64,000 bases of DNA from Bradyrhizobium sp. CB1717 (GTDB taxonomy: Bacteria > Pseudomonadota > Alphaproteobacteria > Rhizobiales > Xanthobacteraceae), in the NCBI RefSeq assembly GCF_029714325.1, contig NZ_CP121666.1, positions 1,674,001 through 1,738,000 on the forward strand, written 5' to 3'. Each line of letters begins with the position of its first letter. Positions within the stretch are counted from its first letter, which is position 1. The notes below the pieces were generated by a model, which was not told the origin of the DNA, did no database searches, and worked only from the letters and a program-made list of their open reading frames with translations. Both the position numbers and the translations under genes were made by a program. Shown here in pieces: positions 13,480 to 39,817 of this stretch.

Positions 13480-13510
13480 CGACTCTTCCCGTTTCCCGTA
13501 TCAGCCGCCG

Positions 13511-13558
13511 CGGGACACCTCCCCCCAACGGGAGGCTTACTATCTGGAAGGGTAGATC
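13511..13558 (+). ncRNA. serC leader RNA motif
   Basis: The 48 bases before serC form two hairpins: CCTCCC / GGGAGG (13518-13523 and 13530-13535) and CTATC / GGTAG (13540-13544 and 13551-13555), the second holding a GGAAG ribosome-site segment in its loop. This layout matches the alphaproteobacterial serC RNA motif, a conserved cis element upstream of serC whose ligand is not known. The match is from memory of the motif; a covariance-model search would settle it. Confidence 0.65.
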
Positions 13559-14731
<1,173 letters not shown>

Positions 14732-33679: not shown

Positions 33680-34153
33680 TTACCGCCACTCCACCTTGGT
33701 GATCTCATACGCCTTGGCGCCGCCGGGGGCATTGACCTCGACGGTCGAGCCCTTCTTCTTGCCGATCAGCGCGCGGGCGAGCGGCGAGGTGATGGAGATG
33801 CGGCCCTTCTTGGCGTCGGCCTCGACCTCGCCGACGATCTGCCACACCGTCTTCTTCTCGGTGTCCTCGTCGACCAGCGTCACGGTGGCGCCGAACTTGA
33901 TGGTGTCGCCGGACAGTTTCGAGATGTCGATGATGTCGGCGCGCGCGAGCTTGTCCTCGAGCTCGGCGATGCGGCCCTCATTGTGGGACTGCTCTTCCTT
34001 CGCGGCATGGTATTCCGCGTTTTCCGACAGGTCTCCGTGCGAGCGCGCCTCGGCGATGTGCTCGATGATCCGCGGACGGTCCTCCGACTGGCGCTTCTTC
34101 AATTCTTCCCCGAGCGCGACAAAGCCGGCCTGGGTCATCGGAACCTTTTCCAT
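33680..34153 (-). CDS. greA: Transcription elongation factor GreA
   Basis: GreA rescues backtracked RNA polymerase by stimulating RNA cleavage. The 157-residue protein has an N-terminal coiled-coil hairpin (residues 1-75) with the tip acidic residues in [14 protein letters not shown] and a C-terminal FKBP-like domain ([36 protein letters not shown]). ATG 34153 gives the usual length (about 158); the frame to 34234 adds an unlikely extension. It lies downstream of carB on the same strand, as in many Rhizobiales. Confidence 0.95.
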
Positions 34154-34358: not shown

Positions 34359-37815
<3,457 letters not shown>

Positions 37816-37823
<8 letters not shown>

Positions 37824-37965
37824 CACCGCTCGCGGGCTGGATTTTGGGCACAAAAAAAGGGCGCGCTTGCCGCGCGTCCCTTGAGCGAGAGCGCGGGGGT
37901 CTCCCTCGCGCGCGGGTGGGTCTTAGACCAGTTTTCGGGGCGGCGAAACCCCGAAAAACGCCCAT
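37816..37965 (-). CDS. Possible 49-codon Arg-rich leader ORF ahead of carB
   Basis: On the minus strand ATG at 37965-37963 overlaps the MFS stop codon (TGATG), and the frame runs 49 codons to TAA at 37818-37816, overlapping the carB start by 8 bases. The peptide has ten Arg, most of them in the middle ([15 protein letters not shown]). Because carbamoyl phosphate feeds arginine synthesis, an Arg-rich ORF containing a terminator hairpin looks like an attenuation leader. GC-rich hairpins can also give Arg codons by chance, so this is tentative. Confidence 0.35.
37852..37882 (-). terminator. Intrinsic terminator 28 bases upstream of carB
   Basis: On the minus strand AAGGG-CGCGC and GCGCGCCCTT form a 10-bp stem with one bulged base and loop GGCAA, followed by T residues (seven in all). 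A promoter cannot fit between it and the carB ATG at 37823, so carB mRNA must pass through it. Confidence 0.75.
37932..37957 (-). terminator. Terminator-like hairpin behind the MFS gene
   Basis: TTTTCGGGG and CCCCGAAAA form a 9-bp stem around an 8-base loop, beginning 8 bases after the MFS stop. It lies upstream of the second terminator and could pair differently with it. Confidence 0.6.
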
Positions 37966-39134
37966 CAACCGGCAATTTTGACCGGTTTTGGCCGGGCCTG
38001 CCAGCCACGGGCGAGATGCACCAGAAGCGAGGCCGCGACGCTCGATCCGCCGATCCAGCCGAGGTCGGTCGGCGACAGGGTGGCCAGCACCGCTCCCCCC
38101 AAGGCCCCGCCGATGGCGAAGCCGAGATACATCGAGGAGGCGTTGAGCGAGAGCGCGATCATCGAGGCCTGCGGCTCGATCCGGATGATGCTGGCGATCT
38201 GGGCCGGATAGAACGCCCAGCCCGAGATGCCCCACAGGAAGATCGCGCCCAGCACGGCGTAATGCGCCTGCCCGGGCATCAATTTGAGGACCAGCGAATG
38301 CAGGATCAGCGCAGCGGCCATGCCGGCGAGCCCGAGGGCTGCGGTGGTCAGCGTGCCGAGCCGGTCGGCCAGCGCGCCGCCGAGCATGTTCCCGATCGCA
38401 GCCGCGCCGCCGAACACCAGCAGCGCCAGGCTGATCTGCGAGGCATCAAAGCCGAGGCCGCGCAGCGGCACCGCGAAATAGGTGAACACGGTGAAGCCGC
38501 CGAGCGCCCATAAAATCGTGATCACAAGCGCGACCAGCACGTTGCCGTGCCGCGCTACTGCCAGCCGGTCGCTGAGCGAAGCCGTGTTGCGCGGCAGGCC
38601 GCGGGGCAGGCCAAGCGGCAGGCCGGCGAGTGCGACAGCGCCGATCAGCGCCACCATGGCAAAAGTCGCGCGCCAGCCGAACAAGCTCCCGACGAGATTG
38701 CCGAGGGGAACGCCGATGACGGTCGCAACCGTGAGGCCCGAGGTCACCAATGCCACCGCGCGGCCACGCCGTTCGGGCGAGGCGACGGCGACCGATACGG
38801 CGAGCGCTGTCGGCATGCACAGCCCGGACCCCAGCGCCATCAGCATCCGCGAGGCCAGCAGCAGGGCGTAGTTGGAGGCCACCATCGCCGCGAGGTTTCC
38901 GGCAATGAAGGTCGTCAGTGCCAAGGCCAGCACGGTGCGGCGGTCGATGTTGTTCAGCGCGACCGCCAGGATGGGGGAGCCCACGGCGTAGGTGAGGGCG
39001 TAGGCGGTGACCAATTGGCCCGCGGCCGAGACCGAGATCGACAGGTCGCTCGCAATCGCAGGCAAAAGCCCAGCAATCACAAAGCCTTCAGTGCCGATCG
39101 CAAAGGCCCCGAGGGCCAGCCAGAAGACGCTCAT
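37965..39134 (-). CDS. MFS transporter, DHA1 type
   Basis: The 389-residue protein has 12 predicted membrane segments. The start MSVFWLALGAFAIGTEGFVIAGLLPAIA and ASRMLMALGSGLCMPTALAVSVAVASPERRGRAVA are typical of drug:H+ antiporter-1 members related to AraJ or PbuE exporters of the inner membrane. ATG 39134 is used; ATG 39143 (three residues more) is equally possible. It is divergent from a helix-turn-helix gene, with two operator dyads in the 113 bases between them. Substrate is unknown. Confidence 0.88.
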   Translation of the reverse strand: MSVFWLALGAFAIGTEGFVIAGLLPAIASDLSISVSAAGQLVTAYALTYAVGSPILAVALNNIDRRTVLALALTTFIAGNLAAMVASNYALLLASRMLMALGSGLCMPTALAVSVAVASPERRGRAVALVTSGLTVATVIGVPLGNLVGSLFGWRATFAMVALIGAVALAGLPLGLPRGLPRNTASLSDRLAVARHGNVLVALVITILWALGGFTVFTYFAVPLRGLGFDASQISLALLVFGGAAAIGNMLGGALADRLGTLTTAALGLAGMAAALILHSLVLKLMPGQAHYAVLGAIFLWGISGWAFYPAQIASIIRIEPQASMIALSLNASSMYLGFAIGGALGGAVLATLSPTDLGWIGGSSVAASLLVHLARGWQARPKPVKIAG

Positions 39135-39741: not shown

Positions 39742-39817
39742 TGGAGACCCGGCCTGGATTTGAACCAGGATGAAGAGCGTTGCACCGCCCTCGCGTAGAC
39801 GCTTCCGCCACCGGGCC
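39742..39817 (-). tRNA. tRNA-like sequence with Cys-type anticodon and U73
   Basis: The 76-base minus-strand segment folds as acceptor GGCCCGG / CCGGGTC (one G-U pair), D arm GCG/CGC with a loop lacking the usual GG, anticodon stem AGGGC/GCTCT with an 8-base loop GGTGCAAC, four-base variable loop, perfect T arm CCTGG-TTCAAAT-CCAGG and an encoded CCA. If T33 is the loop T, the anticodon is GCA (Cys) and the discriminator is U, as in tRNA-Cys. The D and anticodon loops are non-canonical, so it may be a divergent or decayed tRNA. Confidence 0.55.

Follow-up and report, generated by a model that had tools for sequence, protein, structure and literature searches.

A conserved leader with a premature terminator ahead of carB in Bradyrhizobium and its family, a candidate transcription attenuator

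The block of DNA upstream of carB in Bradyrhizobium sp. CB1717 is probably the 5′ leader of carB, working as a premature-terminator attenuator whose tuning likely depends on a termination or antitermination factor. Comparison among relatives delineates the anatomy of this predicted leader and shows it to be conserved and linked to carB. The wide distribution of the leader, its near-invariant terminator, and the lack of a conserved leader peptide or an enriched antiterminator together point to factor-dependent attenuation.

Results

Gene layout at carB

The window (the whole stretch analyzed, 64,000 nucleotides at positions 1,674,001 to 1,738,000 of contig NZ_CP121666.1) contains carB between an MFS transporter gene and greA, the latter following after a gap of 205 bases (Table 1). 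The start of the MFS gene (ATG 39134) is the analyst's choice. Over its N-terminal 120 residues, CarB is 98 to 99% identical to the proteins encoded by five Bradyrhizobium contigs. The carA gene lies 4.2 kb from carB, and no comparable leader or terminator was seen there by eye. A first-pass annotation of this DNA had described an intrinsic terminator shortly ahead of carB and argued that carB messages must read through it. The terminator is present in the sequence, its T-run spaced 28 bases from the carB ATG, and because it lies within the carB leader, the read-through argument holds for transcripts begun upstream. Elsewhere in the window, positions 13508 to 13560 (plus strand) match the serC leader (RF00517 in Rfam), a described alphaproteobacterial leader RNA, and a tRNA-like gene at 39742 to 39817 (minus strand), which lacks a normal anticodon according to ARAGORN and has no Rfam match at the gathering threshold, may be a decayed tRNA.

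Table 1. Features of the carB region, in window coordinates
Feature	Position	Strand	Description
MFS transporter gene	37965..39134	minus	Pfam MFS_1; variable upstream neighbor, outside the leader element
Conserved DNA block upstream of the −10	37931..37968	minus	TTGATGGGCGTTTTTCGGGGTTTCGC...; putative promoter upstream region
Inferred extended −10 of the carB promoter	37930-37922	minus	TGGTCTAAG; start expected near 37917
P1, 5′ hairpin of the leader RNA	37911-37891	minus	GCGCGAGGGAGACCCCCGCGC; folds in the window; covariation
Intrinsic terminator	37882-37852	minus	AAGGGACGCGCGGCAAGCGCGCCC + T7
Terminator stem arms and T-run	T7 at 37858-37852	minus	arms AAGGGACGCGC / GCGCGCCC
GTGCC right behind the T-run	37847..37851	minus	conserved though past the termination point
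Arg-rich 49-codon ORF	37816..37965	minus	judged not to be a gene: unconserved, chance-level, no Pfam match
carB, carbamoyl-phosphate synthase large subunit	34359..37823	minus	Pfam CPSase_L_D1/D2/D3 + MGS; ATG begins at 37823
greA, transcription elongation factor	33680..34153	minus	Pfam GreA_GreB; next after carB

A loose consensus scan gave 10 terminator-like sites in 12 kb versus 8.0 expected and is insufficient by itself; conservation is what marks the predicted terminator as real beyond chance. The sequence from 37965 to 37820, when folded as a whole, does not stand out (z −1.23; 22 of 200 shuffles were equally or more stable).

The leader follows carB rather than the upstream gene

Relatives were drawn from whole genomes (59 of 60 gave a match) and from contigs (the best 80 of at least 587), giving 126 loci, with a carB start obtained in 122. 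A first leader pattern matched 42 of these 122 carB loci. Within the genus sample, the leader was present at all 35 carB loci, 34 recognized by the pattern and one (L033) by eye, the latter having been missed because its −10 box differs in one letter. These 35 loci were combined with six contig loci (L047 to L052) into a 41-locus set, of which 23 have the MFS gene adjoining the leader (in two of them recognized by partial matches) and 18 yielded no MFS gene. A terminator tied to the upstream gene was rejected on the strength of those 18 loci; as judged from these neighborhoods, the MFS gene is a lineage-specific neighbor and the leader is conserved with carB independently of it.

A covariance model of the leader (R1), built from 20 sequences, had a single strong match in the 9.23 Mb genome of the strain itself (E 2.8e-20; the next match had E 0.28). 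Among family genomes, it matched 103 of 159, in 32 of 46 genera. At the level of the order, 14 of 249 genomes were matched, nine of them inside the family; the other five matches were weak (E 0.004 to 0.008), and no carB start was seen in their stretches. A further 115 loci (L127 to L241) comprised most of the family matches and, in addition, weak or second matches found in the strain itself, across the order, or in the family; a carB start was found in 94 (one genome, G259, being counted twice). In 92 of the 94, the 400 bases upstream of carB include a GCGC stem followed by a T-run (L147 and L224 are the exceptions), and the distance from T-run to carB ATG in these 92 ranges from 15 to 212 bases with a median of 30. 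The 21 loci without a carB start are weak or second matches except for L214, which resembles the leader but shows no carB start in its fetched stretch. Fifteen loci without a carB start were inspected: five have a terminator elsewhere, one is the leader-like L214, and nine show no pattern. Further copies of the element were considered and discarded, as the weak matches in this and other genomes show no carB start in their stretches. The earlier proposal of a candidate attenuator ahead of carB is supported, with a leader conserved far beyond close relatives.

Genomes missed by the model and the wider class

To the 103 matched genomes correspond 56 unmatched ones in the family, of which 20 were examined and 18 gave carB. 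A hairpin with a T-rich window lies within 200 bases upstream of 17 of these 18 carB genes, as compared to 9 of 90 shuffled sequences. The stems differ in sequence and are still paired (e.g., GGACGCGT/ACGCGTCC and GGGCTTCGCG/CGCGAAGCC), which supports a structural role and argues, in those relatives, against a strictly sequence-specific factor. At one locus (L250), the scan chose another hairpin, with a weaker one visible by eye before the T-run; at L249, no hairpin with a T-rich tract was found upstream of carB. Outside the family, 16 of 48 alphaproteobacterial carB upstream regions scored, as compared to 11 of 96 shuffled sequences; several of the 16 scoring hairpins are far from carB, and the terminator is patchy in this wider set. 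An analogous hairpin with a CCGG stem and a T-rich tract is present in Ensifer (L067), Agrobacterium (L071), Shinella (L082), and L038, and these hairpins of the Rhizobiaceae and L038 come after a CCTATAAG promoter-like box.

A promoter-like block upstream of the terminator

Identity was profiled per ten-base block in 17 of the 18 loci without the MFS gene. Mean identity is 0.79 to 0.96 in the DNA block upstream of the −10 and 0 to 0.74 further upstream. Across much of the promoter, leader, and terminator, it is 0.89 to 1.0, dipping to 0.79 to 0.87 in P1 and the stretch up to the terminator loop. The sequence TTCTGGTCTAAAG or near variants of it recur across the family ahead of carB terminators, and a pattern picked by eye, TGG-N-N-TA(A/G), precedes 14 of the 17 terminators of model-negative genomes, with a CTCC-type variant in three. 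In the −10 hexamer TCTAAG, position 2 is not the usual A, and the inferred promoter shows no recognizable −35. From this arrangement, we infer that carB has its own promoter ahead of the terminator, with a start near 37917.

The first-pass annotation had pointed to another stem-loop at 37932 to 37957; it exists as an inverted repeat (TTTTCGGGG..CCCCGAAAA) in the promoter region, but by eye it has been lost from several relatives without the MFS gene (e.g., L014 and L017) and was dropped as an element. A palindrome around the −10, GGTC-TAA-GACC, is retained in most Bradyrhizobium leaders; as an RNA hairpin or operator it was rejected because it is broken, by eye, in the wider family, and it is therefore read as promoter. 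Of 90 distinct leaders, 63 have one of two pentamers directly after the T-run (GTGCC in 53, ATGCC in 10), and from there to the ATG both the letters and the length differ across the family. In several Bradyrhizobium genomes, REP-like palindromic insertions of ∼110 bases occur in or just after P1 (L015, L029, L033, and L048), sparing the P1 start and the terminator.

Leader structure

Ninety distinct leaders were aligned by fitting to the covariance model, so that the alignment leans toward it. Both sides have changed in 7 of 9 P1 pairs and in 1 of 10 terminator pairs; such two-sided change is seen in 42 cells, all but one of which (41) belong to P1, versus 15.9 in shuffled alignments and at most 14 in slid controls. 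In contrast to this result, RNAalifold on the first 20 sequences gave weak covariation, with both-side change in just 1 of 27 pairs, and an outer stem that it proposed was omitted from the model as it would pair the −10 box with sequence beyond the T-run. The five-pair terminator core CGCGC/GCGCG is identical in 90 of 90 leaders and is followed by T7 in 87 and T8 in three, an invariance that is partly one of ascertainment since the model set was selected for stem sequence. Folding of the P1 region is weakly better than that of shuffles (mean z −0.96, n = 90; 15 of 90 worse than the mean). Pairing of the leader with the 5′ arm of the terminator was in excess over composition shuffles (longest complement 6.0 versus 4.2), but against dinucleotide shuffles antiterminator pairing is not enriched (mean z −0.47 in the 90 leaders and −0.23 in the 17 model-negative ones). 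No Rfam match was found in the carB leader region, either at the gathering threshold or up to E 5.

The Arg-rich ORF

The first-pass annotation had proposed that ribosomes stalling at Arg codons decide the folding of the terminator. The ORF on which this rests is there as claimed, running from 37965 to 37816 with 49 codons and ten Arg, its ATG overlapping the MFS stop by a single base and its stop reaching 8 bases into carB. It begins, however, ∼50 bases ahead of where transcription is thought likely to start. When the ORF body was shuffled with dinucleotides preserved, 2754 of 5000 sequences stayed open, 628 of which carry at least ten Arg, which bears out the caution, voiced with the proposal, that the Arg codons may be chance. 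Among 40 Bradyrhizobium-type leaders, an ATG stands at the ORF start in 32 and is absent in eight; of the 32, 12 reach the T-run in frame 0, 6 in frame 1, and 14 in frame 2. Relatives that keep the hairpin have thus lost the frame, one of two losses named beforehand as telling against the ORF; the other, that of the Arg codons, was not seen, the Arg count in the first 50 residues being 4 to 11 across Bradyrhizobium-type leaders. Arg codons are thus still fairly numerous, as they also are in GC-rich shuffles. A loose pattern for the ORF start, which overlooked some visible motifs, was recognized in 54 of 125 leaders (ATG in 33, ACG in 8, ATC in 6, and ATT in 4). Between the inferred start and the T-run, the window leader contains no ATG, GTG, or TTG, and the same holds for 21 of 42 leaders, the window included. 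Start codons occur inside the inferred transcript in 48 of 90 leaders versus 40.8 expected, ATG in nine. The ORF has no Pfam match. On these sequence grounds, it is judged not to be a gene, with no sign of a translated leader ORF bearing conserved regulatory codons. The stalling proposal fails on the unconserved start and frame, on an ORF at chance level, and on a promoter-like block downstream of the ORF start.

greA as a constant neighbor

All 33 family genomes tested carry greA in the same orientation, 3.5 to 4.0 kb behind the leader (for three genomes with no model match, the distance was taken from the carB start). The gap between carB and greA measures 115 to 343 bases in the window and in 10 of 20 fetched genomes, those where the greA start pattern worked. 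A hairpin with a T-rich window falls in this gap in 3 of the 10 genomes, and also in the window, so that a transcript shared by carB and greA is hypothetical.

Discussion

The start site, termination itself, and the control of read-through by a factor are reconstructed here as follows. RNA polymerase would start at carB's own promoter ∼95 bases before the ATG, and the transcript would form P1 before polymerase reaches the intrinsic terminator. Most or some transcripts would end there as an RNA of ∼65 nt, the remainder reading through into carB and possibly greA. Since neither a conserved leader peptide nor an enriched antiterminator was found, termination would be the default, and read-through would either be constant in proportion or depend on a factor. 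Most likely, the balance would be set at the terminator hairpin or at paused polymerase by a termination or antitermination factor, leader peptide translation having no part in it. Two known types of regulator were considered and rejected. A PyrR-type attenuator lacks its protein, as no PyrR match (NF003549, E up to 1e-5) was found in the strain's own genome (G000), in a search whose control matched 7 of 14 genomes. For ANTAR control, one ANTAR protein is present in the genome, yet the loops of the carB leader are, we assume, unlike the dual-hexaloop ANTAR target.

Several other readings of the same DNA were weighed. Leader-peptide attenuation, in which ribosomes stalled at the Arg codons of the ORF in arginine scarcity would block terminator folding, draws on an existing ORF with ten Arg that overlaps a gene feeding arginine synthesis. 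We regard it as highly improbable given an ATG and frame that relatives do not keep, openness and Arg content at chance level, a beginning upstream of the inferred transcription start, and start codons in the inferred transcript near expectation. Just as improbable is an RNA-only switch, in which P1 would bind a small ligand such as a pyrimidine nucleotide or arginine and compete with the terminator: P1 does covary, and the GCGC segments of both hairpins could pair alternatively in excess of composition shuffles, but that pairing is unenriched against dinucleotide shuffles. Moreover, neither a conserved loop nor a conserved junction was seen in this small hairpin, which is interrupted or flanked by large palindromic insertions in L015, L029, and L048, and Rfam yielded nothing.

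The terminator could instead end the MFS transcript, with carB transcribed from a promoter concealed within the hairpin or the 28 bases ahead of its ATG. Its closeness to the MFS stop fits such a role, and gene-end terminators are common. This reading is nevertheless improbable, as the MFS gene is missing at 18 of 41 loci that have the leader, the conserved promoter-like block is upstream of the terminator, and the sequence from GTGCC to the ATG is variable across the family, as is the spacing from T-run to ATG. An independent small RNA of ∼65 nt that acts on targets elsewhere, carB being a mere neighbor expressed by read-through or otherwise, has a slightly better but still small chance of being correct. 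A promoter-like box, a hairpin, and a terminator do amount to a complete small-RNA gene, and the GraL leader RNA is described as also acting in trans (PMC6829880, PMC2965389). Against it stand the link to carB in 94 of 115 loci and the failure to find a conserved unpaired seed, P1 being variable and the conserved part mostly paired. A small RNA and attenuation are not mutually exclusive.

Attenuation of carB would belong to a known kind of control, that of premature-terminator leaders. The leader-peptide attenuators of trp, his, and pyrBI likewise place a terminator in the leader of a biosynthetic gene; the carB leader differs from them in having no conserved ORF and no enriched alternative pairing. 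A closer likeness is to the rimP leader, which also has a premature terminator ahead of a housekeeping gene, a conserved stem, no visible antiterminator, and a variable distance to the start codon (PMC2965389). There, the conserved terminator stem and the missing antiterminator were taken as a sign of a recognizing protein (PMC2965389). The carB leader appears to be of this type, with a core invariance that comes from a model-selected set. It differs in gene, phylogenetic range, and stem (GGGc..gCCC for rimP), and unlike the rimP leader it has a covarying hairpin, P1, before the terminator.

The neighboring gene suggests a further comparison. GraL, the leader of Escherichia coli greA, has its own promoter and a short leader terminator, and its sequence is reported to be required for feedback in vivo by GreA and an unidentified factor (PMC6829880). 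The carB leader resembles it in a (predicted) promoter of its own, in a short leader ending at an intrinsic terminator, and in adjoining greA by way of carB; it differs in that GraL is directly before greA and here carB stands between. The likeness is one of architecture, and an effect of GreA in the family of the carB leader is hypothetical. Operons of the form carA-orf-carB-greA are described for Xanthomonas and, as cited there, Pseudomonas, and expression of the Xanthomonas operon is lowered by uracil and arginine (PMC4619228). The position of greA after carB is shared, but the Xanthomonas operon has one promoter before carA (PMC4619228), whereas here carA is distant and carB seemingly has its own promoter. 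Taking these together, a control of a carB-greA unit by the carB leader, with GreA or another elongation or termination factor recognizing the sequence-constrained terminator or acting at it and feeding back on nucleotide-precursor supply, is an unlikely but not negligible extension of the proposed attenuator.

No description of a carB leader in alphaproteobacteria was found in Rfam or in the literature searched, which included the accessible text of PMC2965389, PMC11109978, PMC3616915, PMC2873474, PMC1273637, PMC4842269, PMC5082802, PMC6829880, and PMC4619228, with supplementary tables and most subscription papers outside the search. Arginine and pyrimidine synthesis diverge at carbamoyl phosphate, and how this compound is controlled in Bradyrhizobium and relatives is undescribed in the same literature. 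The carB leader offers a precise target of 100 bases, and neighboring greA a concrete candidate. If the extension to greA were true, elongation capacity would be coupled to pyrimidine and arginine synthesis, in effect a GraL-like loop moved upstream of carB.
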